From NCBI GenBank assembly GCA_032622095.1, contig CP136061.1, forward strand, positions 89,954,983-90,018,982: a stretch of 64,000 nucleotides of DNA, given 5' to 3'. Of the stretch, positions 1,918 through 32,414 are shown in pieces. This DNA is from Siphonodentalium dalli. Its lineage: Eukaryota; Mollusca; Scaphopoda; Gadilida; Siphonodentaliidae. The position numbers and the translations under genes were made by a program. Position 1 is the stretch's first letter, and the number at the start of each line of letters is the position of its first letter. Under the pieces are notes generated by a model. That model made no database searches. It saw nothing but the letters and a program-made list of their open reading frames with translations, and was not told the origin of the DNA.

Positions 1918-2070
1918 TTGTTGCCATGGAGATGGTCACAATTACTGTATATTTTATGTACTTTCAGATGGGCAGCATGAGGTTGACTATTGTTGCCATG
2001 GAAACGGTCACATTTACTGTATTTTTATGTACTTTCAGACAGACGCAGCATGAGGTTGGCATTCGTTGCC
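1918..2070 (+). repeat. Tandem duplication spanning the acceptor and start codon of exon 1
   Basis: Two units of about 72 bp begin with TTGCCATGGA near 1921 and 1993, and a third partial unit falls inside the coding exon near 2063. Each full unit contains the pyrimidine tract, a CTTTCAG acceptor (AG at 1966-1967 and 2037-2038) and a GCAGCATGAGGTTG start context (ATG at 1977 and 2050). The upstream copy is therefore a decoy acceptor plus decoy start. Confidence 0.75.
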
Positions 2071-2110
2071 ATCTTGACGCTGGGTGCTGCTCTGACACAG
2101 GCTCAGAAGC
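2039..2110 (+). CDS. Exon 1: start codon and signal peptide of the PTN/MK-FN3 gene
   Basis: A polypyrimidine tract and AG end at 2038, and ATG lies at 2050. Translation gives Met-Arg, a hydrophobic core (LAFVAILTLGAALT) and Gln-Ala-Gln-Lys, a typical secretory signal of about 18-20 residues. The exon stops at 2110 before GTAAGT, leaving one base (phase 1). That base joins exactly to the FN3 exon at 6906 to give Pro-Pro-Ser-Glu-Pro. The ATG was chosen because it opens the signal peptide; the region just upstream is a duplicated copy of the same acceptor and ATG. A 5' non-coding exon must lie upstream and was not found. Confidence 0.75.
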
Positions 2111-5100: not shown

Positions 5101-8100
5101 AACCTCATTCTGCAAATGACAGACACCCTATTTCAAGGCTTAGAAGGGGAAACGATAACTAAAAACAATGTTACAAGATTAAAGTTTATCAAGGGAAGGC
5201 TAACAGTCTTAGTATAGCGCTTGTCGAGTTGAGTTCTCGTAAGTTGCTTGTTAAGTGTGATAACTTAGGTAATAAGTATTTGGTATAATAGTACTATGTT
5301 TATAGTTTAGTGGGTTTTTAAAAACAATGTTAATTTGAGACTAATGATACTTCCCAAAAGATGAGGTATAAGCAGATTAAGGTCCCAAGAGGGTGAATTT
5401 GGTGATGCTAGGCCACTTTGTGCCAGAGTCACTTTTTATTACACACCTATAGATGTCAGATTTATAAAGATTTCTCAGTGAATTAAAAGTGGTAAGGTCA
5501 CAGCTGTGAAGTTCGTGACAGCACACAAATTTTGACAACGGAACTATATATGTTCACATTCTCGCAAAACACAGAGTGCTCGATTTGAACTGTCATAGAC
5601 TTGTGAATGTCAAAATCATTGATTGCATACATGTAGATATGGACAAGTCTGCAAGATATTCCATCTCATCATAACTATAGTATTTGCCATATTCAAACAG
5701 ACCGGTACCATTTTAATTATAAATTTTGAGCGAGCGAGAGATTAGTTGTAGTATTTGAGGTTCCAACTTCGAAAAATTAAGTCAAGCTGAATCATTGCTT
5801 CACAAATATTCAAATGACTTAATTTGTGCTCGGCATGGGACAAATCAGCTGATTCAGGACTATTCTGACACATGTTGTCTGTAATATTAATGAATTTTAA
5901 TGGCAGAAAGTATGTAATAAACAGAATAATTGTTTCGATGATTATGTGACATAATTCACTTGGGGAGTCAGACCTATGGTAAAAAGCCTGATTATAGCGT
6001 GTCTGTCATTTGCACCATGAGGTCCCCAGAGGGTGAATTTAGTGACGCTATCCCACAGGACTCAACTGATATGGGAGACCTAGGATCAGATTGAAGTTCC
6101 CCAGTTGAAGTTGGTGATGTTCAGCAATTAGTCACCTCAATTAATTTATGCATTTTATCTTCTGCAAATTAGGGGATATAGAAACTGAAAGGGAAAAAGT
6201 AACTCAAAACAATGTTAATTTGAGACTAAGGCTACTTTCCAGAAGATAAGGCTTAAACAGAATGAAGTCCCCAGAGGGTGAATTTGGTGATGCTAGCCCA
6301 CTATGCAGGATAGCGTCACTAAATTCACCCTCTGGTGACCTCATTCTGCAAATGACAGGCACACTAAACTTAGGCTTGCCCAACCCTATTGTGAATTATG
6401 TCACGTAATCAAAACCAATTGATTGCTCTCTATACCAAGCCTGATTATATTGTGCCTGTCATTTGCAGAATGAGGTCCCCAGAGGGTGAATTTAGTGATG
6501 GTAGCCCACTATGCGGTATAGCATCACTAAATTCACCCTCTGAGAACCTCATTAGGAGACATAGACTCAGCCTGAAGTTCCCAAATGGTGAATATTGATT
6601 ATGCAATGTGTCGTTTGCCAATTTGGGGATATAGAGAAACTAAACTAAAAAAGAAATAGAATCTATGTGAACAAGAATTTTGGGATATAGAGAAACTAAA
6701 CTAACAAAGAAATAGAATCTATTGATGATAAAGAAAGATGAGGCCTAAGCAGAATGAGGTCCCCAGAGGGTGAATTGAGTGATGCCTGGCCGCAATGTGG
6801 GATACCATCACTAAATTCACCCTCTGAGGACCTCATGCTGCGAATGACAGGCACACTAAACTCAGGCTTGTATTTGAACTGTGTTATTGCAATAAAATAT
6901 TACAGCACCTAGTGAACCGAGGAATGTGAAGGTCAAGGCAATCAACTCTACGGCTGTGTTAGTCAAGTGGCAACCACCCATAACTACCGGAGCGTAGTGA
7001 CGTCATCCGCGGATACCTTGTGATCTACGAAAAAATAAAAGACGGTGATTTCTTCCAATATGACACAAAGAATGCGGATATTAATAAAGCTGTGATCACT
7101 AAATTGGATCCTGATACTAAATATAGCATAAAGGTCTTAGGTTATACAAGACGAGGTGATGGTGAAAGGAGTCCAGTAATAATCGTGTATACAAATGTTA
7201 CCGGTCAGTCAGGCCATAATAAAAATATGCTTTGTTCCCCCATGCCCAAGTCTGGATATAGTGTGTCTGACATTTGCAGAATGAGGTCCCCAAAGGGTCA
7301 ATTTAGTGATGCTCTCAGAATACCACACACTGGGCTACCATCACCGATTCCATTTATATTGGCTATATGGATCATTCACAACAATATATAGATTGATTTA
7401 AAAAACCGGGCTTGTCTCATTTTTACCTGATTTATGGCCCTTGGTTCTCAGTTATGGTTCTTTTTTAGTGATTCTCGCTCAGACAGATTCTCTGTTATGT
7501 GCAAAAGAACTCGACCAGGGTCATATTTGATGTGCATGACTTGTTTTATCTTCGTTTGATCATCCTGCATTATGGTAGAGTTATCCACCTTTGTTTATAT
7601 TTGTTTCATCAGCCTGCAGATACAGGAAAGGAGTTTGGAGCCCGTGCGGAGCAGATGGACAGAAAACAAGGCAGCTGACGTTATTCCGAGGCAACAACAA
7701 CTGTCTGAACACAACCACAGAAACCAAAAACTGTGGCGGAAAGAAAGGTATGTACAGCACAGGGTCCATGCTGGTGGCCAAAATTTTCTTTTGCGAAATC
7801 TAAAAAAAAAAAATTTAAATATTTTTTATTAGGATAAAAACATGAATAAACATCATAAACACATTAGTCCACAAAAATAAAACATAACAATTGGGTTTTA
7901 TATCGAGATGTTTAAATCAATCTGTGGCTTCAACTTAATTTTTGAGGACACCTGGTTATCTTCTCTCCATGAAGAAACAGATGTTTTAAGAAATGCCCAG
8001 ATGCACCTATGTTCATGGTGTTACACTGGTTGTTTCGTGTACCATATTTTTTAGTCTTTTCGTACCGGATTGTACCATGTCTTGTACCATGTTGCAAATG

Positions 8101-11100
8101 GGGGGAAAACAGTGTTGATTTCATACTTTATTCTTTATTTTAAAATAACATATTAACATTAACAACAATATTTTATAAATGACAACAATATTATACATAT
8201 GACATGGGACATGATTGTAACAATTAACATTTTATTCAGCCGACTCGACAGCGACGGCAACTGCTGGAGCAAACAATTTTGTGCATGCCTTCAGAAATCC
8301 ACTTGTAGAAATGCCGCCGTTTTCATAATTGTTCCATAAACAGAAGAGCTGCGCTTGATTTTCCCGATACTGGACTCTCTGATATCTTTTCATCTGTTTT
8401 TCTCCCACTAACTTTATAGTCATGTCAGTTGTTGCTGATTCCTTCTTTAGCATTGGCACCAGGATGTAGTACGGGATATTTGTAGCTTTATTCTTATATT
8501 GGATGCGTCTGTGCCAGCCCTCCGTGTCATTGTTGGTTCTGATGGAGCGCCCGTAAACACACCACGATTCCATCGGTAGGCATCGGGAGTCCAGCCACTG
8601 TGTCTCCACATAGTCGTAGATCAATGGCATGTTGCCGATTTTGTCCATAAGATCTTTCACCGCATTCAATAACATGAATAATATTGTCAGCGTGATTAGT
8701 ATTCACACTCGATGTAAGCAAATCTCATACTAGTAAGTTCTTTCGCCGCATTCCAAAACATGAATAATTATACTTTAAATATAGTCCATTCTAACTATAT
8801 ATATAAAATACTTTTAAAATGTTGCTATTTTCAACATTTCCAACACATGGTACAAAACGACCAATTGATTTCCTACATGGTACGAAATGACCAAACAATG
8901 CGGTACGAAATGACCAAAAAATATTTTACGAAACGACCAGATGGTACGAAATGTCCTGTACCCGCTAATTATACTTAGTTTAAATGAAATGTTGCTATAT
9001 ATCAGCTACACGTGCCCAACACATAGTGAGATTACAAGTTGTTTATATTGGGCTAAAATTTGTTCTAAAAAAGAAAGAAATCCTCTGTGTCGGTCAGATG
9101 TACATGTACCATTGCAAAATTCAAATATATTTTACCATAGAAGATGCCAAATGATGTCAGAGCAAAATTAAGATGGCGCTCAGGTACAAGCCTGATTAGA
9201 GTGTGCCTGTCAGTGGGCCAAAGCAGAATCAGGTCCCCAGAGGGGGAATTTAGTGATGCTATCTCACATAGTGGGCTAGCATCACTAAATTCACCCTCTG
9301 GAGACCTCGTTCTGCATGGCCTCATCTGCTATGGGAGACATAGACTCAGTTTGAAGTTCCCAAATGGTGAATATTGTGATGTACACCCATTGTGAACCTC
9401 GATTATGCAATGTGTCGTCTGCCAATTTGTGGATATAGAGAAACTAAACTAAAAAAGAAATAGAATCTATGTGAAGAAGTTTTGTAGAAATTTGATAATA
9501 AAGAAACTTTCCAGAGACAATGAGGCCTAAGCAGAATGAGGTCCCCAGAGGGTGAATTTAGTCATGCTAGCCCTCTACAGGTATGCGGTATAGCGTCACT
9601 AAATTCACCCTCTTTGGACCTCATTCTGCAAATGACAGGCACACTAGACTCAGGCTTGCTCATGTGGACAATTATTCCAACCTTGGACATTTGAAAATTT
9701 GTGTGTCATCCTGCCCGTGTTTCAATTTGCCACTGTGGGTATATGTCAGCACCCATGTTGCAACAACCTCTTGTTGAAAATGACTGAAACAGGGACCAAA
9801 CTAGAGGGTGACTTGGGAGTCATGCAGTAATGCTCTAAATAATTGACTCCTTAACCCTTTACCCAACAAACCGGCCAAAACCGGCCAAATAAAGCTTCAA
9901 CAGCCTAAAATATCTTCGGTCTGTCTCAATAAAACCATACAAATATGGATATCATTGGAACCGGCTCCTTGACCACATTGTGATAGTTACAGTTATACCC
10001 TGTGCCAATGCATTCTCTTATATATGCGAGTCGACCATAGGTCGCCTCGCATATATAAGAGAATGCATTGGCCTAAAAATAAAACTTTTTTTAACACTTT
10101 TTACAATTTTTTCTTACATTCTTTAACAATTTTATAATTTTTAATGTGTTAAGCCAATGCATTCTCTTATATATGCGAGGCGACCTATGGTCGACTCGCA
10201 TATATAAGAGAATGCATTGGCACAGGGCCCTTCTGTTGGGTAAAGGGTTAACCACAGCAGAATTATGGGTAACTTTTCAGGATTTAGTCGGAAATATGGC
10301 TTGTTGCCATACATTGGAAAGCTCTCAGTGAGAGCTTTCCGATGAATGGCAACAAGCCATATTTCCGACTAAATCCTGAAAAGTTACCCATAATTCTGCT
10401 GTGGTTAAGGAGTCGATTATTTAGAGCATTACTGTATCTCTAAAATGTGTCACTTCTTCCTATTTTTGTCTCAGGGAGAACTGACTTCTCTCTCATACAC
10501 ATTTGTCGCAACATCATATATGAAGTATATTTACAGTGTCCTTTCTCACTATAATTGTTTTATAAATGGGCTCTTGTGTTGCATAGTACTAATTGGATCA
10601 TAGAAGGGTGATGTCGGGGTTTAATTTCAGTAAACCAACAATGAACATTTTGTTTGAAGTTTTATTTTATTAAAATAGCACAAAGTAATGTTATTTGAGC
10701 GTATTAAACCAATATATACATATTTACAGTAATGCCCTAAGTAATCGACCCCTTAACCACAGCAGAATTATGGGTAACTTTTCAGGATTTAGTCGAGAGC
10801 TTTCCGATGAATGGCAACAAGCCATATTTCCGACTAAATCCTGAAAAGTTAGCCATAATTTTGCTGTGGTTAAGGGGTCGATTACTTGGGGCATTACTGT
10901 ACATGCATATGCATTGGTTATAATTTATATTTCCTGTTAGCTGCAACAAAGCAAGATCAGGCGCACAATAAACTGCGCACCAGCATTTTTCAAAATCGAG
11001 GTACTACTGAAAGATAAATTTTTTGAATATTTTTTCAAGGTATGAGATGCAAGTATGAGAAAGGGACATGGAGCGACTGTGTGAATGGTGTCAGGTCGCG

Positions 11101-14100
11101 TACTCTCACTCGCAAAGCCAACAGTGCGGGCTCATGCGACGCACAGAAGGTTATAACTAAAGTCTGCAAACATGGTGAGCATTAATTATGTTTAATTGGT
11201 GGATTGACCATTAAAATTGAAGTAAGTATTGGTAAATTCGTCTGATCTATCACATTATCAACAACGGGGAACAATTGAAAAAGAAATTAAATTTTCTCAA
11301 ACCCCACCCATTATTTGATGAATGTGATTTCAGAAAATTTGTTTACCTGTTAATCCAATTGAAAACAAAATTAAATCTCTGTGCCATCATGCTAATAACG
11401 ATGTGACTGTGTTTGAAAACCTGAGAAAAGCACGGCCTCGTATTTCTCTATAGATATCTGGTAAAGGAAAATTTTAATACGAAATAAAAGCGATGTCTCA
11501 TTATCGTAGCAACAAGGTTTCTTCTTGACAATTCTGTGCATTATGAGTTTGTTCCCTAAACAATCATCGTAACTCTATTTTGTTTGCCTGCAACTGTTGT
11601 AATAAGTGTTTACAATATTTGTTTTCTTTGGCCAATCGGTGTGACATTTGGTGTATAGTCTTCTAAGTTAAACCACATGACATGGTCCAAATTTGGGCTA
11701 AATCTGGTATTTAGGAGAAACGTTATAAATGAGTGAAAATCGTGACAGAGTTACAGACTGAATTCTTTATATAGAGGATCTATAATGAGTCGCAATTCTA
11801 TACAAATTTTATTAACTCTTTCAGTGCCAGGGGCCGATCTCATCGGCCCTAATTTACAGTCTGTAGAGTGCCAGGGCTGATAAAATCGCCCCTAAAAATT
11901 TAAAAATTAAAAAAAATTAAAAAAATTTGGGTATGCTTAAGCATGCTATAGCGAATTTAAAAACAAACTGGATAAAACCTTAGGGGCATGTTATAACTCA
12001 AAACTATCACCAAGTATTCATAGTAATAATTTTGATGCCCATGAAAAACGTAAGATTCCCTGGCACTAAACCTACAATATAAGTCTTGCACTGAAAGAGT
12101 TAAAGAATATAAGAAAAAATTATTAAAATTGTAAAAAATAATAACAAATGATGAAAAATTGTTAGGCCAATGCATTCTCTTATATATGCGAGGCGACCTA
12201 TGGTCGACTGGCATATATAAGAGAATGCATTGGCACAGGCTATATGGGTTGATACAAAAATCGGACTTGGCACTGAAAGGGTTAACGAAGTACACTGAAT
12301 TTGATTTGAGCTTTAGTGAGGCTCAAATCAATTTTAAGTCTACGAGGTTAATAAATTTTGAATAGAATGCGATGAATTTTAAATCCTTTTTATCACATAA
12401 TCACATTTTAGCAAGGAAAAATGACCGGGGTTAAATGGCCGGGGTTAAAAAAAATTATATTGATTTCCTTATCACAACCAAAGAGGAAGTAAGACACCTT
12501 CAAGACAAAATATAGTTCCATTTTAAATGTGTCTTTTTGTGACAAAATTTTTTCAACCACCCGTATCACCCATGTTTATCACACTAAATAACCCAACACA
12601 AATTGAATGTCATAATTATATTATACATAACATACCGTATGCACCCGTCAGTAAGCCCATCCTCGAAGATAAGCCCAGTCTGGGTTTTTCACCCTAAATA
12701 AAACATGGGGTGGTCCTCGTAGATACATGTAAGCCCACCCCCATTTTAGAGCATTTGGTAGGTGAATAATTGTAATCATGTCTTCCTATCCAGTATAATA
12801 AGAGAAGATAATCAAGCACATCTGTGCTGTTATTATTTTTTCCAGTTGTTTTTCTTAAAAAAAAAAAATAAAGATGTATAATAGTATACACTTGTTAGCT
12901 CAACTTTACTTTGTAAAGTTTGAGCTATTGCCATGGCTTGGTATCCGTCGTCCGTGTGCGTGTGTGTGCGTGTGTGCGTGATGCGTCAACAATTTCCTTT
13001 AGCACGGGCTACAGTTCGTACCTTTGGTCCGATTATTATGAAATTTGTCATGGATGTTGACATTGACATGTAGATGGGAACGAGTCATTTTGGGGTCATT
13101 CGGAAAAAAAACATGGCCGCCAGTGGCCATCTTGGATTTCAAAATTCAATCCATTAGCACGGGCTACAGGCCGTACCGTTTGTCTTATTGTCAGGAAATT
13201 TGTTATGGATGTTAATATTGACATGTAGATGGGAACGAGTAATTTTGGGGTCATTTGGCCAAAAAACATGGCCGCCGGCAGCCATCTTAGATTTTACTCT
13301 TTGCATGACTAAATCCTTTGACACGGGCTACAGGTCGTACCTTTGGTCAGATCATCATAAAATTTGTCATGGATGTTAACAATGATATGTAGATGGGAAC
13401 GAGTCTTTTTTGGGTCATTCGGGCAAAAAACATGGCCGCCAGCAGCCATCTTGGATTTTACTCTTTGTATGACTAAATCCTTTAGCACGGGCTACAGGTC
13501 GTACCTTTAGTCTGATCATCATGAAATTTGTAATGGCTGTTGAAATTAGAATGTAGATGGGAACGAGTCATTTTGGGGTCATTCGGACAAAAAACATGGC
13601 CACCAGCAGCCATCTTTGATTTCAAAATTTAATCCATTAGCACAGGCCACAGGTCGTACTGTTCGTCTGATCATCATGAAATTTGTCATGGATGTTAATA
13701 TTGACATGTAGATGGGAACGAGTAATTTTGGGGTCATTCGGCCAAAAAACATGGCCGCCAGCAGCCAATTTGGATTTTACTCTTTGTATGACTAGATCCT
13801 TTAGCACAGGCTACAGGTCGTACCTTTAGTCTGATCATCATAAAATTTGTCACGAATGTTAATAATGACATGTAGATGGGAACGAGTCATTTTGGGGTGA
13901 TTCGACCAAAAAACATGGCCACCAGAAGCCATCTTGGATTTGACTCTTTGTATGACTAAATCCTTTAGCACGGACTACAGGTCGTACCTTGAGTCTGATC
14001 GGCATGAAATTTTTCGTGGCTGTTGAAATTGGAATGTAGATGGGAACGAGTCATTTTGGGGTCATTTGGATGAAAAACATGGCCGCCAGTGGCCATCTTT

Positions 14101-17100: not shown

Positions 17101-20100
17101 TTGTCATGGATGTTAACACTGACATGTAGATGGGAACGAGTGATTTTGGAGTCGTTCGGCCAAAAAACATGGCCGCCAGCAGCCATCTTGGATTTTACTC
17201 TTTGCATGACTAAATCCTTTGGCGCGGGCTACAGGTTGTACCTTTGGTCTAATCTTTATGAAATTTGTCATGAATGTTGACATTGACATGTAGATGGGAA
17301 CGAATCATTGTGGGGTCATTCAGCCAAAAAACATGGCCGCTGGCAGCCATCTTGGATTTCAAGTTTCAATCCATTGGCGCGGGTTACAGGTCGTACTGTT
17401 CGTCTGATCATCATGAAATTTGTCATGGATGTTAATAATGACATGTAGATGGGAACGAGTGATTTTGGGGTCGTTCGGCCAAAAAACATGGCTGCCAGCA
17501 GCCATCTTGGATTTTACTCTTTGCATGACTAAATCCTTTGGCGCGGGCTAAAGGTCGTTGCGTTGGTCAGAAGTTTATGAAATTTGTCATGGATGTTAAC
17601 ACTGACATGTAGATGGGAACGAGTGATTTTGGAGTCGTTCGGTCAAAAAACATGGCTGCCAGCAGCCATCTTGGATTTCACGATTCAATCCATTGGCGCG
17701 GGCTACAGGTCGTACTGTTCGTCTGATCATCATGAAATTTGTCATGGATGTTAATAATGACATGTAGATGGGAAACAAGTGATTTTGGGGTCGTTCGTCC
17801 AAAAAACATGGCCGCCAGCAGCTATCTTGGATTTTACTCTTTGCATGACTAAATCCTTTGGTGCGGGCTACAGGTCGTAGCTTTGGTCAGATGGTCATGA
17901 AATTTGTCATGGATGATAACAATGACATGTAGATGGGAACGAGTCGTTTTAAATCCTTTTGCGCGGGACATTTTGGATTTCAAAATTCAATCCATTGGCG
18001 CGGTCAACAGGTCATACTGTTCGTCTGATCATCATGAAGTTTGTAGGTCGTAGCTTTGGTCAGATCTTCATAAAATTTGTCATGGATGTTAACAATGACA
18101 CGTAGATGGGAACGAGTCCTTTTGGGGTCAATTGGCCAAAAAACATGGCCGCCAGCAGCCATCTTGTATTTTACTCTTTGCATCACTAAATCCTTTGGCG
18201 CAGGTTAGACATTTCAATTAGCACCTTTCCTATTCCTCCATTTACTGTCAACCATTAAATTATTCCTCTACCTAAGTTGAGCTACAGTGTCATTGACACT
18301 ATCATTTTACTTAGAATCTTGCAATTTTCTGGTTTCCGAATGATAACTTCAGTTTGTTTGATCATATCTGAACCAAATTTGGTATGTGAGTTTATCAGCC
18401 CTATATACAGGTCAAATTTGAATATGGGTTTGCTCCGCCCATTTTTGCGAGAGTTGTGGCCCTTTTTCGACTTGGAATCCTGTCAATTTCTGGTTTCCGG
18501 ATGATAACTTCAGTTTGTGTGATCATATCGGAACCAAATTTGGAATGTGCATTTATCAGCTCGAAATACAGGCTAAGATCAAATATGGGTACAATCCTCC
18601 CAAATTTGCTAGAGTTATGGCCCTTTTTCGACTTAGAATCCTGTCAATTTCTGGTTTCCGGATGATAACTTTAGTTTGTGTGATCATATCTGATCAAATT
18701 TAGTATGATAGTTTATCAGCCCAAAATACAGGTCAGGTTCGAACATGGGTTTGCTCTGCCCATTTTTGTGAGAGTTCTGGCCCTTTTACGACTTAGAATC
18801 CTGTCAATTTCTGGTTTCCGGATGATAACTTTAGTTTGTGTGTTCATATCTGAATCAAATTACAAATTTGGTATATGAGTTTATCAGCTCGAAATACAGA
18901 TCAAGTTCGAATATGGGTACGATCCACCCATTTTTTGTCTGGTTGCTCTCAAATATGGAATATTGATTTCTTATATGAAAATATAACATGAACTTTTTTC
19001 CGATTATTTCTTGGCAGAAACTGTGTACCTTATAACTAAAACTTAAAAGGATAGCCTTTTGGTTCTGGTCGAAGCTTTTGCTTATGTACTATTCTCAATG
19101 TGGTGTCTATATGGGATAATTATGCACTCTAAACATTTGAATTTCTCAACAGTTAAATTTTCTGATGTCAATCTTAAAGAAATGCTAAAAAATTCCCAGT
19201 TAGAAGCAACAATGACTAGATACATTTCTGTCATCAGTTACTCATCAAGCAATCTTGGAAACTTGTTTATTCACTGAACAGATCATCTGGTAACAAATAA
19301 CACAGCCAGCATTAATGAAGGTAAAATTAACAAATAAATATCTAAAGTTTGCCGTGTACCATTTCAGGGGACACTGGTTGGATTGTTCTGAAATTTAGTA
19401 TCGGATTTAGGGTCCTTGTTATTTTTTTCAGAAAAGCTTATGCCCCCAATGAAGCCACCATTATCCGAGCAAGGTCAGTTCCCGGAACTGCTTTATTATA
19501 GGTAACTACAGTAATGCCCTAAATAATCGACTCCTTAACCACAGCAGAATTATGGGTAAATGTTCACGATTTAGTCGGGAAAATGGCTTGTTACCATTCA
19601 TCGGAAAGCTCTCACTGTGTCATCCCTGACAATGACATTACAAGAGGAGCAGAGGAACAAAATTTTTCAAATTTGTCTGAGAATCCTTTAGCTGCTGGAA
19701 TCGTTCTCAGAACACTGATCGTTGCATTGATGGTTGATTCGTGATGCCCATGCCACTGGTAATGCAGATGGCAACACAAAGCCTGACAGATACCATGTCA
19801 GTTTCGAACCCTCCGCCATATCGAAGGTATAGCTCAGATGTCGGCCAACAAACCAACTGAGCTATCCGATCCCCACTGTGAGTGCCTTATGTCACTCTAA
19901 CTTACATCATCAGCTATTAACATATATTATCAATCTGCCTTCTGTTTTAGAATGTAACTATGTTGGTGGTGAATGGAGCGAGTGCGATTTGAGAACTGAT
20001 ACCATGCAACAGTCACTCATCCTGGAAACCGGTGATGTAAAAAAATGTCCTCCAAACAAGATCATACACAAAAAATGCAAGAAAGGTAACTAAATTACAT

Positions 20101-23100
20101 AAAACAATTCTCCCCAAACGTATGGGAGGCCAAATTCACATTTAATAGCCAATTACGCTTAAGCGTAATTCCATTATGCTTAAGCGTAATTCAGATTTCT
20201 GACGCTTAAGCATAATGGCATTACACTTAAGCGTAATGAATGTGTATTACGCTTAAGCATAATGGCATTACACTTAAGCGTAATCACTTAAGCGTAATTC
20301 AAATTCCATATCTCAAAACTCCCCTGGAGCTGAAAAGGATGCAGCCAATTACTGATGCCATTAACTTTAAACATATATTTACCTTAGTTGATACCATTAT
20401 ATACGATTAAGCGTAATGCATTACGCTTAAGCGTAATTAGCAATTAAATGTGAATTTGGCCTCCCATAAAACGAAGGTCATACCCAAAAAATGCAAGAAA
20501 GGTGACTAAATTTACACACAAAAATTCCTCCAATGAAGGTCATACACAAAAAATGCAAGAAAGGTAACAAATAATACAAACAAATGTCCCCAAACGAAGG
20601 TCATATGTAAAAACAAATGTAAGAAATATAACTAAATTACACAAACTTTTTCCTATATATGACCGTTTATGAGTTGAAACACTGAGAAAATCAAAGATTC
20701 CTGGATGTGTGAAATATCACAGGTCCCCTGGCGCGACAACACCTCCATGAGTATATACATTAATACAAGGTTTATAACTATCTGACCTACAGTAATGCCC
20801 TAAATAATCGACTCCTTAACCACAGCAGAACTATGGGTAATTTTTCAGGATTTAGTCGGAAATAAGCCATATTTCCGACTAAATCCTGAAAAATTACCCA
20901 TAATTCTGCTGTGGTTAAGGAGTCGATTATTTAGGGCATTACTGTATATTGAGCTGCATGAAATATTGCAAAAACAACATCTCAGATTCCACACGAAACA
21001 CTCTCAGACCATCTAAATTGAAACATATTTCCTCTGGGCTGCCCACCCCAGTAAAAATGTTTTTATCTCACCTGTCAGGAATTAGGGTTTCATGATTTTC
21101 TTAACCCTTCTGTAAGGTATACAAACAGTCTTGTTTCTGTTTATACACAAAGACAGCATGTTTACAAACAAGATGCTCATATATTCAGGTATTATAAATA
21201 GAACATATTTATAAACAAAATTCTAGTATATTCAGATATAAATATTATACTATGCAAAATAAATGTTAACCCTTTCATGATGGGAGCTGCATTGGTGCAG
21301 CATTAAATACCATGTGTCACTGCATTCTCTTATATATGCAAGTCTCCCATAGGGAGCCTCATATATAAGAGAATGCATTTACTAACAAGGTCAAGGTTAA
21401 TATTGTTAGGCCAATCTATTCTCCTATATATCCAAGGATCCCTATGGGAGACTCGCATATATAAGAGAATGCATTGGCACAGTGTTTTCACAAAATTTCA
21501 GGAAGCTCCAGTCATGGAAGGGTTAGTTAATGCATCTCTTACATCCCTGAATCTATTGATATTTCAGCATGTAAATTCAGGAAAGGAAATTGGTCGGCAT
21601 GTAACCTAGCAACCCATCTGAAAGAGCGTAATGATATACTGGTCGGCAGCAATGAGGAAGCCTGTAGCAAAACAAGAACGATAACTAAGCACTGTCGCTA
21701 CAGCAAAAACAAAAACAACAAGAAAAACAAAAAGAATAAGAAGAATAAAAGAAAAAATAAGAAGAAAAATAAAAAGAAGAAAAATAAGAAGAAGCAAAGA
21801 AAACAGCAAAGAAAGTTCAGTAAAACAGGTACGGTGGTCTGGGTCATAGGTCACATGGTGGTCTGGGTCATAGGTCACATGGTGGTCTGGGTCACAGGGG
21901 CTTCTCATTACAGTCACATAGTGGTCTGGGTCACGGTATTCTCATTACAGTCACATAGTGGTCTGGGTCACAGGGGCCTCTCATTACAGTCACATAGTGG
22001 TCTGGGTCACAGGGTCCTCTCATTATGGTCACATGGTGGTCTGGGTCACAGGGGCTTCTCATTATGGTCACATGTGGCCTGGGTCACCGAGGCTTCTCAT
22101 TACGGTCACATGGTGGTCTGGGTCACAGGGGCCTCTCATTAAAGTCACATGGTGGTCTGGGTCACAGGGGCTTCTCAGCACCACAGCTATGCGGGGTAGC
22201 ATCACTGAATTCACCCTATGGGGACCTCATTCTGCAAATGACAGACACCCTATTTTAAGGCTTGGTGGGATTCGAACGAATTATGTCCGTTTAAGCAAGT
22301 GAGCAATAATATTAATAGAACAAAATCTAAATTTAAACAAGCCCGCCACTTAAACGTCTCTATTAACCCTTCCAAGACTGAAGCTTCCTGAAATTTAGCG
22401 AAAACCCATTGCCAATCCATTCCCTTATATATGTGAGTCTGTCCATAGGGAGCCTCACATTTATAAGAGAATTCATTGGCCTAACAATATTTACCTTGAC
22501 CTTGTAAGCCAGTGCGTTCTCTTATATATGCTAGGCTCCCTATGGGAGACTCACATATATAAGAAATGCACTGGTGTTGGATCCTTAATGCTGCAACAGC
22601 GCAGCTCCCGTCATGCAAGGGTTAACAGGGAGGACAACAAAATCAAATACATCCTCAATTTTAATGGCCTAATCTGGTTCCTAAAACTTCAAACGCCAAT
22701 TGGTTGAGTATATGCTGTAATTTACAAATCTGGTACACAATTCTAGGTTAAACTGTTCGAAAACTCATAACACAAACGATAAACAAAATATTGTTCCCGA
22801 GGACTGGGTGGTATGGACAGACTTCATTAATGGAGAAAACACTCCATCGATTCCAAGCACAGAATTTATTAATGGAGATAACAAACCGCCGATTCCAAAT
22901 ACAGAACTTAAGTTACCGATAAAAATCTGCAGATCTGATGTCAATCAACACAAATTAATTGCATATTTCAGTCTAAGTCATTTCTCGCTTTTAAAAATAT
23001 TTACAAAGTCATTTTGCTGAAGACAAAATGGACGTGCATGCCTGCTTGCCAATCAACGATCAGAATACTCATCACCCTATGGGAGACTCACATATATGTG

Positions 23101-26100
23101 ACCCGCCATATCAAATCCAGTCGGAAGTCGGGATTTTTTTTACCCTGTGCCAATGCATTCTCTTATATATGCGAGTCGACCATAGGTCGCCTCGCATATA
23201 TAAGAGAATGTATTGGCCTAACAATTTTTTACAATTTTAATAATTTGTTCTTGTATTCTTTAACAATTTTATAATTTCACCCATACAGAGCTCCAGACAA
23301 ACATGAGCAGACGACACTATTCTATATGCTTCTATATATGTGTAGGGCTCCCTGCAGGGTAATGGATGTTTTTTATTTTATGTCCTAAAAATTGTAAGAA
23401 ACATTTATTTAAAAAACATGATAAAAAATTGTTAGGCCAATGCATTCTCTTATATATGCGAGGCGACCTATGGTCGACTCGCATATATAAGAGAATGCAT
23501 TTGGCACAGGGTTTTTGCAAAATTTCAGGAATCTCCAGTCATGGAATGGTTAAATATTGGAAATGTTTGCTTTGACCACTATCTCTGTTATATTGCAGCG
23601 CCAAGAGATGTTACTATTATACCATCAGAAGATGACCCTCGATTGGTGCAAGTAAACTGGCAGCCACCAATCAGATCTCTCGGTCAAATCACAGGTATGC
23701 TGGCCTTTAGATTGGTGATATTTTGGGACATCGGGGGGATCCAACTTGTTCAACATTGTGGGAGAAACTTCCGAAATTTGCACACAAAAAAACTTGAATT
23801 CCTAGCATTTTTTCTGGGCATGATCGACTAACCCTTTACCCAACAAAACGGCCAAAACCGGCCAAATAAAGCTTCAACAGCCTAAAATATCTTCGGTCTG
23901 TCTCAATAGAACCATACAAATATGGATATCATTGGAACCGGCTCCTTGACCACATTGTGATAGTTACAGTTATGCCCTGTGCCAATGCATTCTCTTATAT
24001 ATGCGAGTCGACCATAGGTCGCCTCGCATATATAAGAGAATGCATTGGCCTAAAAAAAATATTTTTTTACCATTTTTTCTTACATTATTTAACAATTTTA
24101 TAATTTTTAATGTGTTAAGCCAATGCATTCTCTTATATATGCGAGGCGACCTATGGTCGACTCGCATATATAAGAGAATGCATTGGCACAGGGCCGTTCT
24201 GTTGGGTAAAGGGCTAAGTGATAATAATTCATTGATATAAATGTAGTACTTGTACTTGTAAACAATTTCAGTGTTTCTGAATATAAATATATCAACATAG
24301 CTGTGCAGTGAGAAAATATTGCATTCTCATCAATTCTTATATTTATTGTGGGCACTGCATTTACCAAATTGAATTTGGGGTAATCACTGATTGGCTTGAT
24401 GCACTGATGACATATATTTTCTACCCATTGAGGCCTGCAGGTATATAAGCAGCTTCACGATCATCTTTTAAGGAATCGCACATTAAAAACAGCCACAGAA
24501 AATATAATTTACCATTTCAAATGGGGAATTTTACATCTCCAACTGATTTTCTTACAGGAAGTTCTGGCATTAAATTACTCCAGGAGTGCAACTGCCTATT
24601 GCTGTGCCATATTTTAATTAATCTTCAAAACTGCGGTATGAAACCAACACCGTCTTACACCGCCCACATTATTTTCTTAACGGTATATTGGCAGTTCAAT
24701 AAAATCACGATAATCAAACCAATTAAACATTCTCACCCAAACGCTTTATCTCCATTTGAATGCATACTACTAAATATAGTCTGTCAAATTTCTATGGTGT
24801 GACATTGCATCTATCAAAGCGTATTTACCAAATATGGTGCAGGACACTTAGTTCTAGCCTCTAGAATTGGGCTGGATTAATGAAGTGATATTTTCAGTGC
24901 TCTATTTAGTCCATGTGTACTTTTTTGGCATGTTCCATTCATAGGCAGTAGGGATGAAGTCCTGACATGTATTCTCTCTCTCTCGCATGTGCGTGGGGCT
25001 TTCTACCTGTCTTTTTCTATTCCCACCCAAAATAGCAATGACATGATGAAACATGCTGAAGTGAAAACACCATGTGCGCGCAGTATACAGGAATATTCCA
25101 TTGTAATAATCCAGTTAGGTTATGCTTTCCTTTCATTTAAACAAAAAATAACTATCTATTGCTCATTGTTTTCAGATACAAACTTATTTATAGTACTAGT
25201 AAGCGGAATAATTTAATAGTTTACATGTAACTGAAATTTTTCTATTTCTGAAATATTTTATTGCTTCGGAAGTTGTGTACACTACTGTAGCTAAGTTCAG
25301 CATAGAATAACTCAGACATAGACTCTCAGCCATAGGTTATCGGATCTCGATGAAATTTAGTAAGGATTTTGGCCATCCACCGGTCAACAGCAAGCCTGAG
25401 TTTAGTATGCCTGTCATTTGCAGAATGAGGTCCCCCAGAGGGTGAATTTATCCTGCATAGTGGGCTCATTCACTAAATTCACCTTCTGGGGACCTCATTC
25501 TGCTTAGGCCTCATCTTCTATGGAAAGTTTCTTTATTATCAAATTTCTATAGAAACTTCATCACATAGATTCTATTTCTTTTTTAGTTTAGTTTCTCTAT
25601 ATCCCCAAATTGGCAGACGATATTGCATATTCAAGGTTATCAATGGGTGTACATGTACGTCACAATATTCACCATTTGGGAACTTAAATCTGAGTCTATG
25701 TCTCCCATAGCAGATGAGGCCATGCAGAATTGAGCTCCCCATAGGGTGAATTTGGTGATGCTAGCCAACCCTGTGGGTTAGCATCACTAAATTCACCCTC
25801 TGGGGATCTCATTCTGCAAATAACAGGCATACTAAGCTCAGGCTTGGGCGACAGCCCAGCCCTACAGTAATGCTCTAATTAATCGACTCCTTAACCACAG
25901 CAGAATTATGGGTAACTTTTCAGGATTTAGTCGGAAATATGGCTTGTTGCCATTCATCGGAAGAAATATGGCTTGTTGCCATTCATCGGAAAGCTCTCAG
26001 CGAGACCTTTATGATGAATGGCAACAAGCCATATTTCCGACTAAATCCTGAAAAGTTACCCATAATTCTGCTGTGGTTGAGAAATTGATTAATTAGAGCA

Positions 26101-26358
26101 TTACTGCAGTTCTGTCCATTTATTCAGTTCATTATCATGATTCTCTCCTATTTCTTTACAGATTACGTCATATTCTTCACAAATAATCTGAACAACTTGA
26201 CGAGTTGGGTGACGGAGAACGTTCAGGGAGAAAAGCTGAGTGCTGTCGTCGAGAATCTCACACTAAATATGACGTACTATTTCAAGGTTCAAGCTAAAAC
26301 GACTGGCGGTCCCGGAGCATTGTCACAGATAGTTTCATATAGCACGCCTGTTTCTTAG
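2050..26358 (+). CDS. Secreted multi-PTN/MK protein flanked by FN3 domains (whole gene, exons joined)
   Basis: Ten exons can be joined: 2050-2110, 6906-7203, 7613-7747, 11040-11174, 16411-16584, 19432-19473, 19951-20085, 21568-21828, 23599-23694 and 26162-26358. Order of parts: signal peptide, FN3, five PTN/MK-type modules (each Cys-x-Tyr/Phe...Trp-Ser-x-Cys...Cys...Cys), a Lys/Asn-rich tail, FN3, stop. All internal junctions are phase 1, so modules can be added or skipped without breaking frame. Expected length is about 510 residues if the frameshift in exon 2 is ignored. Known family: midkine and pleiotrophin are secreted heparin-binding growth factors; vertebrate forms have two modules and insect Miple proteins also few. 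The likely place of action is the extracellular matrix or cell surface. The FN3 plus five-module layout is unfamiliar to me. Exons were found by eye, so further small exons may be missing. The frameshift leaves open that this copy is damaged. Confidence 0.8.
2410..3182 (+). repeat. 164-bp-unit array, truncated copy
   Basis: Four to five diverged units containing GACATGTAGATGGGAACGAG, GTCATTTTGGGGTCATTCGG and ATGGCC...GCCATCTTGGATTT. The element ends (AGCTCAACTT) are missing on both sides. Confidence 0.75.
3309..3430 (+). repeat. 27-bp minisatellite
   Basis: About 4.5 units of ATTATTATAAACAGATTACATGCAGTG-like sequence. Confidence 0.8.
3479..3870. mobile_element. TTAA-flanked MITE, CCCTTTACCC family
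   Basis: TTAA at 3475-3478 and 3871-3874; TIR CCCTTTACCCAACA. It holds two palindromes of about 68 bp (3507-3573 and 3653-3722) around an AT-rich spacer. Confidence 0.85.
3959..4109. mobile_element. hAT-like palindromic MITE, CAAGCCTTG family
   Basis: The 151-bp element is almost a perfect palindrome: CAAGCCTTGAAATAGGGTGT at the left, inverse at the right. It is bounded by an exact 8-bp target duplication TCGACAAT (3951-3958 and 4110-4117). An 8-bp duplication points to the hAT superfamily. Confidence 0.85.
4179..4565. mobile_element. TTAA-flanked MITE, CCCTTTACCC family
   Basis: TTAA at 4175-4178 and 4566-4569. Nearly the same sequence as the copy at 3479 and in the same orientation, with a deletion in the loop of the second palindrome. 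A 31-bp direct repeat (TTGGGATAGTGTATGG...) lies on both sides, outside the TTAA. Confidence 0.85.
4734..4856. mobile_element. Diverged CAAGCCTTG-family MITE
   Basis: Starts AAGCCTTGAAATAGTGTGTC and includes the inverted pair around CTATCACTAAATTTACCCTC, but with more mismatches than the copy at 3959. The right end grades into further family sequence. Confidence 0.6.
4992..5142. mobile_element. hAT-like palindromic MITE, CAAGCCTTG family
   Basis: 151 bp, closely similar to the copy at 3959. The 8-bp target duplication GAAGGGGA lies at 4984-4991 and 5143-5150. Confidence 0.85.
5151..5980. other. Intron DNA of the PTN/MK gene, little recognised
   Basis: AT-rich intron sequence. A short family fragment (AGAGGGTGAATTTGGTGATG) lies at about 5385-5410. 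Nothing else was recognised. Confidence 0.5.
5983..6378. mobile_element. CAAGCCT-family element, longer form
   Basis: Starts AAAGCCTGATTATAGCGTGT and ends ...ACTAAACTTAGGCTTG. It carries the GAGGTCCCCAGAGGGTGAAT palindromic blocks at both ends and a non-palindromic middle (GATATAGAAACTGAAAG...). Confidence 0.7.
6436..6870. mobile_element. CAAGCCT-family element, longer form
   Basis: Left CAAGCCTGATTATATTGTG, right ...ACTAAACTCAGGCTTG. The two palindromic blocks are separated by a middle with AGAGAAACTAAACTAA repeated twice. It ends 35 bp before the FN3 exon at 6906. Confidence 0.7.
6906..7203 (+). CDS. Exon 2: FN3 domain with a 1-base frameshift
   Basis: The acceptor TTACAG ends at 6905 and the donor GTCAGT begins at 7204. 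The exon starts PSEPRNVKVKAI and reaches WQPPITTGA, the conserved Trp-x-Pro-Pro core of FN3. It then meets TAG-TGA at about 6993-6998 in that frame. One base over, the domain resumes at once as SDVIRGYLVIY and continues through LDPDTKYSIKVLGYTRRGDGE to the donor. Both outer junctions are phase 1, so an intact exon should be a multiple of three; it is 298 bp (3n+1). This fits a single inserted base near 6990. It may be real gene damage, a polymorphism or an assembly error. The frameshift is directly visible. Confidence 0.75.
7240..7345 (+). mobile_element. Partial CAAGCCT-family element
   Basis: CAAGTCTGGATATAGTGTGT followed by GCAGAATGAGGTCCCC and a decayed right arm. Confidence 0.5.
7613..7747 (+). 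CDS. Exon 3: PTN/MK module 1
   Basis: Acceptor CATCAG ends at 7612 and donor GTATGT begins at 7748; the exon is 135 bp, phase 1-1. It encodes ACRYRKGVWSPC, then a basic strand (QKTRQLTLFRG), NNC and a final KNC. The four Cys and the Trp-Ser-x-Cys motif match the C-terminal heparin-binding hairpin of midkine and pleiotrophin. Asn-x-Thr near the third Cys is a possible N-glycosylation site. Confidence 0.8.
8026..8945 (-). mobile_element. Deleted Mutator-like (MULE) transposon remnant
   Basis: Imperfect terminal inverted repeats of about 38-40 bp at 8027-8066 and 8902-8939, both built from GGTACGAAATGACC-type motifs. The right side carries several further copies of GGTACGAAATGACC in tandem (8858-8960). 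The interior holds the transposase fragment. No clear target duplication was found. Confidence 0.5.
8232..8675 (-). pseudogene. C-terminal fragment of a MULE-type transposase-like protein
   Basis: A 147-codon frame with ETQWLD, ESWCVYGRSIRTNNDTEGWH and RRIQYKN. The Arg-Thr-Asn-Asn-x-x-Glu-Gly-Trp-His motif is typical of the region after the MULE transposase domain in FLYWCH/MULE-related animal proteins. The catalytic DDE part is missing. It is flanked by inverted repeats (about 8027-8066 and 8902-8939), so it is a decayed or deleted transposon within an intron of the PTN/MK gene. Confidence 0.55.
9187..9658. mobile_element. CAAGCCT-family element, longer form
   Basis: CAAGCCTGATTAGAGTGTGC at the left and ...CACTAGACTCAGGCTTG at the right, with palindromic blocks at both ends (9230-9315 and 9536-9636). 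Confidence 0.7.
9825..10434. mobile_element. CAGTAATGCCC-family MITE, split by a TTAA MITE
   Basis: The left end is CAGTAATGCTCTAAATAATT. After 27 bp its native CCTTAACC is interrupted by the TTAA MITE at 9855-10247, and the rest (CCACAGCAGAATTATGGG...) resumes at 10252. The right end is ...GAGCATTACTG. Unsplit copies elsewhere show the empty site. Confidence 0.85.
9855..10247. mobile_element. TTAA MITE (CCCTTTACCC family) nested in another MITE
   Basis: TTAA at 9851-9854 and 10248-10251. TIR CCCTTTACCCAACA, two 68-bp palindromes. Opposite orientation to the copies at 3479 and 4179. Confidence 0.9.
10727..10899. mobile_element. TA-flanked MITE, CAGTAATGCCC family
   Basis: Exact ends CAGTAATGCCCTAAGTAATC and ...GGGGCATTACTG, with TA on both sides. 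Confidence 0.8.
11040..11174 (+). CDS. Exon 4: PTN/MK module 2
   Basis: Acceptor TTCAAG ends at 11039 and donor GTGAGC begins at 11175; the exon is again exactly 135 bp, phase 1-1. It encodes MRCKYEKGTWSDC, RSRTLTRKAN, GSC and KVC, giving four Cys, the Trp-Ser-x-Cys core and a basic strand. Equal length and phase with exons 3 and 7 argue for descent by exon duplication. Confidence 0.8.
11175..11811. other. Intron DNA, nothing recognised
   Basis: Intron between PTN/MK modules 2 and 3. AT-rich with no repeat family recognised in this part. Confidence 0.5.
11816..12281. mobile_element. TTAA-flanked MITE, CCCTTTCAGTGCC subfamily
   Basis: TTAA at 11812-11815 and 12282-12285. Same family as the copy at 730, with one palindrome at 12171-12236. 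Confidence 0.75.
12635..15211. mobile_element. TA-flanked element with CACCCGTCAGTAAGCCC inverted repeats
   Basis: Left end CCGTATGCACCCGTCAGTAA, right end the inverse (CTGTATACACCCGTCAGTAA on the - strand), TA on each side. Most of its length is the nested 164-bp array at 12893-15016. Its own interior is short and non-coding. Confidence 0.7.
12893..15016 (+). repeat. 164-bp-unit array with AGCTCAACTT ends
   Basis: Starts TAGCTCAACTTTACTTTG, a hairpin with the following GTAAAGTTTGAGCT, and ends ...AAGTTGAGCTACAGTGTCAT with the hairpin AGTGTCATTGACACT. Inside are about a dozen units with GACATGTAGATGGGAACGAG. Two linker types alternate (TTTCAAAATTCAATCCATTA and TTTACTCTTTGTATGACTAA). Confidence 0.8.
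15330..15474. mobile_element. TA-flanked MITE, CAGTAATGCCC family
   Basis: CAGTAATTCTCTAAGTAATC at the left and ...GAGCATAACTG at the right, TA on both sides. Confidence 0.75.
15475..15860. other. Intron DNA, nothing recognised
   Basis: AT-rich intron sequence without a recognised repeat or exon. Confidence 0.5.
15865..16233. mobile_element. TTAA MITE, CCCTTTACCC family, left end shortened
   Basis: TTAA at 15861-15864 and 16234-16237. After CCCTTTAC it jumps to AAATATGGATATCATTGG, skipping the approximately 60 bp of other copies. Two palindromes are present. Confidence 0.8.
16411..16584 (+). CDS. Exon 5: PTN/MK module 3, Trp-less, with Lys-rich extension
   Basis: Acceptor TTTTCAG ends at 16410 and donor GTGGGT begins at 16585; 174 bp, phase 1-1. 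It encodes NGCKYRKISKGAC, a basic strand, KKC, EKKC and then a Lys-rich stretch (KSKKNKPSKLAKQ). The four Cys are kept, but the usual core Trp is replaced (SKGAC instead of WSxC), so this module may bind differently. Its 3' end plus the following intron bases resemble those of the mini-exon at 19432. Confidence 0.75.
16600..18945 (+). mobile_element. Element with approximately 170-bp tandem units, split by a nested array
   Basis: Starts with the hairpin CCCGAAAACAAAATTCGGG and has units with TTTCCGGATGATAACTTTAG, CCAAATTTGG and CATTTTTGCTAGAGTTATGG. One unit lies at 16677-16814 and about four at 18307-18940. The array 16815-18306 interrupts it inside GGCCCTTTTT. Confidence 0.65.
16815..18306 (+). 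repeat. 164-bp-unit array with AGCTCAACTT ends, nested
   Basis: Starts TAGCTCAACTTACTTTTG and ends CTAAGTTGAGCTACAGTGTC plus the hairpin AGTGTCATTGACACT. About eight units. The host element resumes at ACTTAGAATC. Confidence 0.8.
18946..19430. other. Intron DNA, nothing recognised
   Basis: AT-rich intron with one short frame (19059-19277) that has no recognised domain. Confidence 0.45.
19432..19473 (+). CDS. Exon 6: 14-codon Pro-rich linker exon
   Basis: A TTTTTTTCAG acceptor ends at 19431 and GTCAGT follows 19473; 42 bp, phase 1-1. It encodes EKLMPPMKPPLSEQ. The last bases and the intron start (GTCAGTTCCCGGAACTGC) closely match exon 5 and its intron start (GTGGGTTCCCAGAACTGC). It is probably the remnant end of a duplicated module-3 exon. 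Usage is unproven, but frame and splice sites are good. Confidence 0.5.
19509..19614 (+). mobile_element. Left half of a CAGTAATGCCC-family MITE
   Basis: CAGTAATGCCCTAAATAATC through CATCGGAAAGCTCTCAC, then the sequence changes. The right arm is missing. Confidence 0.7.
19615..19874 (-). mobile_element. tRNA-derived SINE
   Basis: On the - strand the head at 19874-19801 has a tRNA-like A box (TAGCTCAGTTGGT) and B box (GGGTTCGAAAC) at near-normal spacing. It is followed by a non-tRNA body down to about 19620. The acceptor stem does not close well, so this is a SINE rather than a tRNA gene. Confidence 0.6.
19951..20085 (+). CDS. Exon 7: PTN/MK module 4
   Basis: Acceptor TGTTTTAG ends at 19950 and donor GTAACT begins at 20086; exactly 135 bp, phase 1-1. 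It encodes ECNYVGGEWSEC, DTMQQSLILETGD, KKC and HKKCKK. The four Cys and the Trp-Ser-x-Cys core are present. The first strand is less basic than in other modules. The 3' end of this exon and its donor are repeated downstream. Confidence 0.8.
20055..20640 (+). repeat. Tandem copies of the exon 7 end and its splice donor
   Basis: The unit GGTCATACACAAAAAATGCA / AGAAAG / GTAACTAAATTACA recurs at about 20472, 20533 and, decayed, 20597 after the real donor at 20085. The decoys at 20502 (GTGACT) and 20563 (GTAACA) keep an AG|GT junction; the last has ATATAA instead. A MITE (20123-20466) separates the first unit from the rest. Confidence 0.75.
20123..20466. mobile_element. TA-flanked MITE with ATTACGCTTAAGCGTAAT palindromes
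   Basis: Ends TGGGAGGCCAAATTCACATT and the inverse ...AATTTGGCCTCCCA, TA on each side. The interior has about nine CTTAAG-centred palindromes. A decayed relative lies at 31075-31215 and again at 39690-39828. Confidence 0.75.
20790..20944. mobile_element. TA-flanked MITE, CAGTAATGCCC family
   Basis: Near-perfect palindrome with exact ends CAGTAATGCCCTAAATAATC and inverse, TA on both sides. Probably a young copy. Confidence 0.85.
21270..21522. mobile_element. TTAA-type MITE, CCCTTTCATGATGGG subfamily
   Basis: TTAA before 21270 and TTAG after 21522 (one base changed). It has two related palindromes with TCTCTTATATATGCAAG and a different loop (CCCATAGGGAGCC). It ends 45 bp before the module-5 exon. 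Confidence 0.7.
21568..21828 (+). CDS. Exon 8: PTN/MK module 5 with long Lys/Asn tail
   Basis: Acceptor ATTTCAG ends at 21567 and donor GTACGG begins at 21829; 261 bp, phase 1-1. It encodes ACKFRKGNWSAC, four Cys ending in KHC, and then about 45 residues made almost only of Lys, Asn, Arg and Gln. A basic tail after the C-terminal hairpin is what midkine and pleiotrophin have, only longer here. It is likely a strong heparin- or proteoglycan-binding segment. A minisatellite begins right at the donor. Confidence 0.8.
21829..22180 (+). repeat. Minisatellite beginning at the exon 8 donor
   Basis: Units of TGGTCTGGGTCACAGGGGCT / TCTCATTACAGTCACATAG, about 39-40 bp, with two shorter 22-bp units first. 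The array begins with the donor itself (GTACGGTGGTCTGGGTC). Confidence 0.8.
22184..22263 (-). mobile_element. Partial CAAGCCTTG-family MITE
   Basis: Right arm only: AGCATCACTGAATTCACCCT ... AGACACCCTATTTTAAGGCTTG. Confidence 0.6.
22367..22621. mobile_element. TTAA MITE, CCCTTCCAAGACTG subfamily
   Basis: TTAA at 22363-22366 and 22622-22625. It holds two diverged forms of the shared palindrome and ...GCTCCCGTCATGCAAGGG at the right. Confidence 0.7.
22626..23125. other. Intron DNA, nothing certain
   Basis: AT-rich. It contains two copies of a TTAATGGAGA(A/T)AAC-like motif near 22828 and 22869. No domain recognised. Confidence 0.4.
23085..23548. mobile_element. TTAA-type MITE, mosaic copy
   Basis: Contains palindromes at 23149-23219 and 23436-23506 and a middle (ACCCATACAGAGCTCCAGAC) shared with 53685-53830. 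The right end is ...CATGGAATGG before TTAA at 23549-23552. The left part (ACCCGCCATATCAAATCC) matches 53940-53960 in reverse. Confidence 0.6.
23599..23694 (+). CDS. Exon 9: first half of C-terminal FN3 domain (copy 1)
   Basis: Acceptor ATTGCAG ends at 23598 and donor GTATGC begins at 23695; 96 bp, phase 1-1. It encodes APRDVTIIPSEDD, RLVQVNWQPP and RSLGQIT, the A to C strands of an FN3 fold with the Trp-x-Pro-Pro motif. The intron falls just before the Tyr-Val-Ile strand. An identical exon lies at 32183. Confidence 0.8.
23832..24213. mobile_element. CCCTTTACCC-family MITE flanked by CTAA (copy 1)
   Basis: Same TIR and palindromes as the TTAA copies, but CTAA lies on both sides (23828-23831 and 24214-24217). 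The duplicate at 32415 has the same flanks. Confidence 0.85.
24218..25380. other. Intron 9 DNA, nothing certain
   Basis: AT-rich intron. Frames at 24521-24802 and 24989-25216 recur in the second repeat but show no domain. Confidence 0.45.
25391..25846. mobile_element. CAAGCCT-family element, longer form (copy 1)
   Basis: CAAGCCTGAGTTTAGTATGC at the left, ...ACTAAGCTCAGGCTTG at the right, palindromic blocks at both ends. Imperfect 8-bp flanks GTCAACAG / GGCGACAG. Confidence 0.75.
25865..26106. mobile_element. CAGTAATGCCC-family MITE (copy 1)
   Basis: CAGTAATGCTCTAATTAATC at the left and ...GAGCATTACTG at the right. An internal 32-bp segment (ATATGGCTTGTTGCCATTCA...) is doubled. It ends 55 bp before exon 10. 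Confidence 0.8.
26162..26358 (+). CDS. Exon 10: second half of C-terminal FN3 and stop (copy 1)
   Basis: Acceptor TTTACAG ends at 26161. Phase 1 joins to exon 9 to give Asp-Tyr-Val-Ile-Phe-Phe. The exon continues through LSAVVENLTLNMTYYFKVQA (the Tyr-x-Phe-x-Val-x-Ala end strands of FN3) to STPVS and a TAG stop at 26356-26358. Two Asn-x-Ser/Thr sites (NLT, NMT) fit a secreted protein. The following AT-rich DNA is presumably 3' UTR. A copy with the same protein sequence lies at 34751. Confidence 0.8.
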
Positions 26359-26979
26359 TTCTAAAAATACCAGTATGGTGCAATACAGCAAATAAGGGTC
26401 CACTTCACATAAATCTGAGAGAAATATAATGTGTGGCAAAAGTTATAAAACGTGATAAATCTTGAATCTCTATCGATAAAAACCATGATCTTTGTTGTGA
26501 CAGATAAAATTCATATAATTGTATAAGTTTTTGATAGAATTTTGTTCTTTCTATTTATGAAAGGCATTTTTATATAGTATGCCAGGCTCTTATGTTCCTT
26601 TAATTTGGCCTTGACATTGGTGGAACACTGACTCTCATTGGGCTTAACATTGTGTGAGAGAATATTTTGTTTCTAGTATTTGACATTTTAAGACAGCAAT
26701 TTCTTTGCATATGGGGGCACAATAGCTGCTTCAAGAAACCTTCAAAAAATAAAATCTCAAATAAGATATTTCTGAAGTTTCACATTGATATTCATATACA
26801 TGATGAAGGTATGTCTGTATCTGCTCTGATTATTATAAGGGCATAATTCCATATTTTGGGCTCACCCTTGTTCTGCTTGAATTTGAAGGAATTTAAATGC
26901 CTGCATGTGAACTGCACATCATCACCTCATCAGTGTAAACAGTTGCAAGTGATTATTATTATGTGGTTTTGCTGATTTA
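26359..26979 (+). other. Probable 3' UTR of the PTN/MK gene
   Basis: Follows the stop. AT-rich, with AATAAA-like signals (for example AAAATAAAATC near 26745). The real poly(A) site cannot be chosen from sequence alone. Confidence 0.4.
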
Positions 26980-28001: not shown

Positions 28002-28005
28002 TTAA

Positions 28006-32130: not shown

Positions 32131-32182
32131 TTAAGGAAATATATATTATATTTTTAAAAATATCATCTCTGTTATATTGCAG

Positions 32183-32278: not shown

Positions 32279-32414
32279 GTATGCTGGCCTTTAGATTGGT
32301 GATATTTTGGGACATCGGGGGGATCCAACTTGTTCAACATTGTGGGAGAAACTTCCGAAATTTGCACACAAAAAACTTGAATTCCTAGCATTTTTTCTGG
32401 GCATGATCGACTAA

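Follow-up and report, generated by a model that had tools for sequence, protein, structure and literature searches.

Exons and reading frame of the candidate gene

The window, by which we mean the whole stretch of 64,000 nucleotides analysed here, corresponds to C1:89954983-90018982 in a genome of 2.23 Gb assembled in 9 contigs. A first coding exon on its plus strand (2050-2110) provides a start codon and a signal-peptide-like sequence, as judged from the translation, and ends in phase 1 at a GTAAGT donor. The encoded N-terminus is hydrophobic when read by eye, and the signal peptide that an earlier note on this DNA had proposed was recognized in the same way. Five exons that each encode one PTN/MK module follow on the same strand. 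Modules 1 (7613-7747), 2 (11040-11174) and 4 (19951-20085) occupy exactly 135 bp each, as had been noted before, module 3 (16411-16584, 174 bp) carries a short basic extension, and module 5 (21568-21828, 261 bp) continues into a long Lys-rich tail, likewise noted previously, with K or R at 26 of its 43 residues. All five module exons are phase 1-1. Two more plus-strand exons encode a C-terminal FN3 domain, the first half at 23599-23694 and the second half at 26162-26358, which includes an in-frame TAG at 26356-26358. A further FN3 exon at 6906-7203, between the first coding exon and module 1, has 298 bases and a one-base frameshift, and, as sequenced, cannot be translated throughout.

Joining the eight exons without 6906-7203 gave an open frame of 1194 bases (397 residues) that runs to the TAG. 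The codon is split after its first base (phase 1) at all seven junctions, and none of the seven codons formed there is a stop. The assertion that every exon of the locus is phase 1-1 thus applies to the junctions of the eight-exon model and fails for 6906-7203, whose length is not divisible by 3. The module-5 exon contains no stop and reaches a fitting donor that matches the consensus at 7/9 positions. Minisatellites with 24-bp and 39-bp units (21833-22177) adjoin this donor, and the module-5 frame stays open within them as far as about 22139. We also considered that the last FN3 exon might end at a splice donor, and rejected this version on account of a donor fit of 3/9 and the TAG in frame. 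Neither a start of their own nor another FN3 partner was found within the window for the terminal FN3 exons.

Chance openness was estimated from other AG...GT blocks in window positions 1-46000. In phase 1-1, blocks were open in 10/110 cases at 135 bp and in 7/109 cases at 174 bp; at 96 bp 21 of the 116 blocks were open, and at 261 bp none of 121. Openness alone would therefore be weak evidence for the short exons, and it is the domain scores that carry the case. Sixteen more phase 1-1 open blocks are present in the window; one lies inside a frame scanned against Pfam and had no match, and many of the others look like repeats by eye. When frames of at least 20 residues in the window and in one further locus were searched with PTN/MK and FN3 profiles, the only exons of these domain types listed were the five modules and the pieces of FN3. 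Six chosen window frames, scanned against Pfam, returned one CUE and one zf-RVT match, both below cut-off. A terminal exon may nevertheless lie undetected between 21829 and 23598, which would count against the gene model.

The predicted protein was compared with Pfam, as the earlier note had proposed. All five modules exceeded the PF01091 (PTN_MK_C) cut-off of 25.3 bits, with 34.6, 38, 30.8, 33.5 and 39.8 bits for modules 1 to 5, confirming the number of modules reported before. The joined protein scored 116.3 bits for PTN_MK_C in 5 stretches and 41.4 bits for fn3 (cut-off 25), so that the C-terminal FN3 domain, too, was correctly recognized at the outset. Four cysteine columns are invariant in 8 modules of the genome, and the mature protein would contain 20 cysteines. 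The four-Cys pattern of each module is the one seen in the C-terminal halves of midkine and pleiotrophin, and a profile built from the eight modules matched pleiotrophin/midkine-type C-domain chains in 5/5 of its structure-bank matches. No PTN_MK_N match was listed for the joined protein at E up to 0.1, and the layout of one N-type and one C-type module was not encountered.

The mature protein of 378 residues has a calculated pI of 10.06 (86 K or R versus 27 D or E), and the FN3 domain alone a pI of 4.77. Pairwise identity is 24-40% among the five modules and 26-42% between them and the C-domains of midkine and pleiotrophin. The equal exon lengths fit a duplication of module exons. Growth of the gene by this route, as suggested earlier, is likely, but the argument is weakened by identities of only 24-40%, and the duplications are old.

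Two tandem arrays of about 164-bp units (12995-14909 and 16893-17944) are situated in the two large introns. The intron after module 1 contains a 156-codon open frame on the minus strand (8232-8702), for which Pfam yielded no match at E up to 0.1.

Sources of the two FN3 regions

The FN3 exon at 6906-7203 is a copy from a LAR-type receptor phosphatase gene. It shares 64% identity with an exon at C3:67786754-67787050, against 27-34% for the next-best matches genome-wide, and its bounds coincide with those of the C3 exon. The best solved structures for the protein of C3:67786754-67787050 were receptor phosphatase delta (2.9e-33) and Drosophila Lar (8.7e-27). Phosphatase-domain exons follow downstream on the same strand (C3:67805086-67815237). 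These exons and the structure matches together identify a LAR-type gene as the origin of the first FN3. The LAR-type receptor tyrosine phosphatases are membrane phosphatases; none of the tyrosine phosphatase domain matches listed lies in the window.

The frameshift in the copy falls within approximately 6984-7004. Immediately behind it the phase-1 frame runs into stops; a different frame is open through the remainder of the FN3. The two halves scored 22.2 and 33.9 bits against the fn3 cut-off of 25, one below and one above. The intact N-terminal FN3 domain described in the earlier note was not recovered. The acceptor of the exon is weak (7/17 pyrimidines), and its donor agrees with the consensus at 7/9 positions. 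A transcript that includes 6906-7203 would end translation inside the FN3, and a transcript that omits it would keep the frame. Such skipping is possible since the two flanking exons meet in phase 1.

Comparison of 6906-7203 with the LAR-type exon (NG86, 96 codons) gave dN = 0.24 and dS = 1.05, that is, a dN/dS of about 0.23. The copy contains no point stop, one frame-shifting indel, and an in-frame length difference relative to the LAR-type exon. In a simulation of free decay that counts frame-shifting indels only, such a state had P values of 0.04, 0.002 and <0.001 at indel-to-substitution ratios of 0.05, 0.12 and 0.38, if all change was placed on the 6906-7203 copy, and of 0.22, 0.07 and 0.0002 at the same ratios, if half as much change was placed there. 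A test on stops alone was weak (P = 0.15). With moderate confidence, these values suggest that 6906-7203 is not a long-dead relic, and that it was under constraint in the past. The lesion may have arisen recently, may be allelic, or may stem from an error in the assembly; alternatively, a different gene may have preserved the exon undamaged until it arrived at this locus.

The terminal FN3 (23599-23694 and 26162-26358) derives from FN3 number 6 of a neogenin/DCC gene. In a structure-bank search, the ten best of 31 matches were to neogenin or DCC. E-values of the first nine lie between 7.8e-22 and 3.1e-19; a further DCC FN3, in tenth place, had 6.1e-8. The match in 4urt, a construct of DCC FN5-FN6 (PMC5563286, in the part available), covers residues 102-197 and thus FN6. 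Within the genome, two exons at C6:48781115-48782264 and an inverted second copy of them share 49-51% identity with the terminal FN3, and the FN3 of the first C6 copy has neogenin as its best structure match (3e-40). The intron inside the terminal FN3 and the acceptor before it are placed at the same codon and in the same phase as in the neogenin gene of the genome. At the position of the neogenin donor, the window gene meets a stop within two codons. All 4 genomic matches to Neogenin_C are on C6, and the window gene lacks this region. Between the terminal FN3 and its neogenin source dN/dS is approximately 0.27 to 0.34, with dS saturated.

The neogenin/DCC-type gene itself is present in two inverted copies, at C6:48774567-48817671 (plus strand) and C6:49021161-49062649 (minus strand). 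Both have equal FN3 match scores and paired Neogenin_C matches, and the pair could equally be a recent inverted duplication or an effect of the assembly.

Taken together, and as far as sequence can tell, the locus is an exon-shuffled mosaic that received its FN3 domains from the LAR-type and neogenin/DCC genes of the same genome. Its history is unusually clear, because both donor genes persist. The description of five PTN/MK modules between two FN3 domains has to be revised to a well-supported gene model in which a secreted protein carries five PTN/MK modules and a single FN3, the first FN3 exon being frameshifted; two FN3 domains would be encoded only if this lesion were an assembly error or a non-functional allele.

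The terminal FN3 lies inside a recent tandem duplication, which had escaped the earlier note. A segment at 32165-40451 on the plus strand (8.3 kb) repeats 23581-31839 with 98.3% identity by BLAST; 47 substitutions and 18 indels separate the two over 8226 aligned bases. According to the sequence letters, the second copy of the terminal FN3 exons is found at 32183-32278 and 34751-34947 (plus strand), and none of the 293 exon bases differs between the duplicates. We did not accept this identity as proof of selection, since it is equalled by 795/8258 circular shifts (P = 0.09-0.18). A 319-codon open frame on the minus strand (40670-41626) has a zf-RVT match of 17.4 (cut-off 27.5) and is probably the remnant of a retrotransposon at the end of the tandem duplication.

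Alternative readings of the locus

We consider it somewhat more probable than all other readings combined that the window harbors a single plus-strand gene, assembled by exon shuffling, for a secreted basic protein with signal peptide, five PTN/MK C-type modules, Lys tail and one FN3. Transcription and splicing of the eight exons in this arrangement would join an FN3 domain to PTN/MK modules in one transcript, which stands as a strong prediction rather than a fact. The full series of FN3, five PTN/MK modules and FN3 might instead be real, with the frameshift in 6906-7203 representing an assembly error or a private allele, so that the normal protein would have both FN3 domains. We regard this as possible, at perhaps half the weight of the single-FN3 model or a little less. 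The exact exon bounds, the dN/dS of about 0.23 and a single frame-shifting indel without any point stop speak for it, together with the free-decay probabilities of 0.04 to <0.001 at ratios of 0.05 to 0.38. Yet the sequence as assembled is broken, at a site outside any long homopolymer run, the acceptor is weak (7/17 pyrimidines), and the stops-only test carries little weight. Part of the divergence, moreover, lies on the LAR side, and intactness may have been maintained in another gene before the exon arrived.

We think it unlikely that the product is a secreted PTN/MK-only protein, the FN3 exons being captured passengers that the mature transcript leaves out and the actual last exon having been overlooked. 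One of the FN3 exons is visibly broken, the terminal FN3 is part of a recent duplication, and the other PTN/MK genes of the genome have no FN3 match nearby. Against this stand the two terminal FN3 halves, both intact at about 50% identity to their source, with conserved splice positions and a dN/dS of about 0.27-0.34 (dS saturated), and a module-5 exon that offers no stop of its own before the minisatellite. More doubtful still is a soluble modulator of guidance cues, in which the PTN/MK modules would tether the protein to proteoglycans and the neogenin-derived FN3 would bind RGM or netrin. Its appeal is the descent of the terminal FN3 from FN6, a domain within both the RGM-binding (FN5-FN6) and the netrin-binding (FN4-FN6) regions according to the available parts of PMC8063088 and PMC5563286. 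The minimal RGM region is, however, FN5-FN6 with a specificity loop in FN5 (PMC8063088, same limit), FN5 is absent here, and about half of the FN3 residues have changed.

Predicted function and relation to known families

Under the favored single-FN3 model, the product would most likely be a secreted, multivalent proteoglycan-binding protein that ends in an FN3 domain. Binding of the basic modules to proteoglycans is a reasonable expectation by homology and charge. The modules and the Lys tail would engage heparan or chondroitin sulphate multivalently, the protein would thereby be held in the matrix or on proteoglycans, and the terminal FN3 would be presented as a spacer or as a contact domain for protein partners. 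The earlier note proposed that the FN3 domains could bind a receptor or matrix; both trace back to FN3 domains of guidance receptors. The Drosophila Miple proteins bind heparin even though the heparin-contact residues are not fully conserved, as the accessible text of PMC4224452 describes. Neogenin binds RGM through a minimal FN5-FN6 region with the specificity loop in FN5 (PMC8063088), and netrin binding by DCC requires FN4, FN5 and FN6 (PMC5563286), in both cases according to the portion of the paper at hand. Direct binding of RGM by the terminal FN3 is less likely, because FN5, which bears the specificity loop, is absent here. It would be a long shot to propose that a midkine-type, heparin-binding cytokine whose FN3 domains came from the animal's own LAR-type phosphatase and neogenin/DCC acts outside the cell, tethered to proteoglycans, and modulates the cues that these receptors sense.

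Midkine and pleiotrophin are usually described as small two-module cytokines without FN3. Among the receptors reported for them is a receptor tyrosine phosphatase (PMC4224452, accessible text). The predicted protein shares four-Cys C-type modules and a basic tail with them and with Drosophila Miple1/2, known members being small, secreted and heparin-binding (PMC4224452, within the portion seen), but differs from them in its five C-type modules and its terminal FN3, and no N-type match was listed for it. With neogenin/DCC it has FN3 number 6 and its internal intron in common. The neogenin/DCC receptor has Ig domains, six FN3, a membrane anchor and Neogenin_C, whereas the window gene shows only one FN3 of these. 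Exon shuffling among extracellular proteins commonly involves class 1-1 modules, and the frame is preserved when exons of this class are skipped (PMC8001218, available part). The mode of assembly is therefore ordinary, even if the product is unusual. The domains and the way they were assembled are of known kinds; the combination of FN3 with PTN/MK was not found in print among the listed titles and opening lines of abstracts on PTN/MK with FN3 or on PTN/MK in molluscs and relatives, or in the available portions of PMC4224452 and PMC10131483, and may be recorded elsewhere. A PTN/MK gene with exon-exact copies of guidance-receptor FN3 domains would be a clean and traceable case of class 1-1 exon shuffling. 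It would extend the range of layouts known in the PTN/MK family, and it would connect matrix-binding cytokines with domains of guidance receptors in a way that can be tested.

The genome contains two other, full-length single-frame genes with tandem C-type modules, at C1:50885033-50885629 and C3:151064305-151064895, which start with a signal-peptide-like sequence by eye. In contrast to the window gene, they have three modules, no introns between the modules and no FN3 in frame. The two are 93-94% identical (dN = 0.038, dS = 0.079), and a third, truncated single-frame copy is located at C3:151062058-151062447. The single-frame genes may be retrocopies.

Towards the end of the window, plus-strand frames at 46434-46622 and 55033-55317 resemble a CUE-domain gene, which we take to be CUEDC2-like; the CUE match of 55033-55317 scored 15.9 (cut-off 21.1). 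A short-unit tandem array between these frames, at 50643-51236, leaves long open frames.
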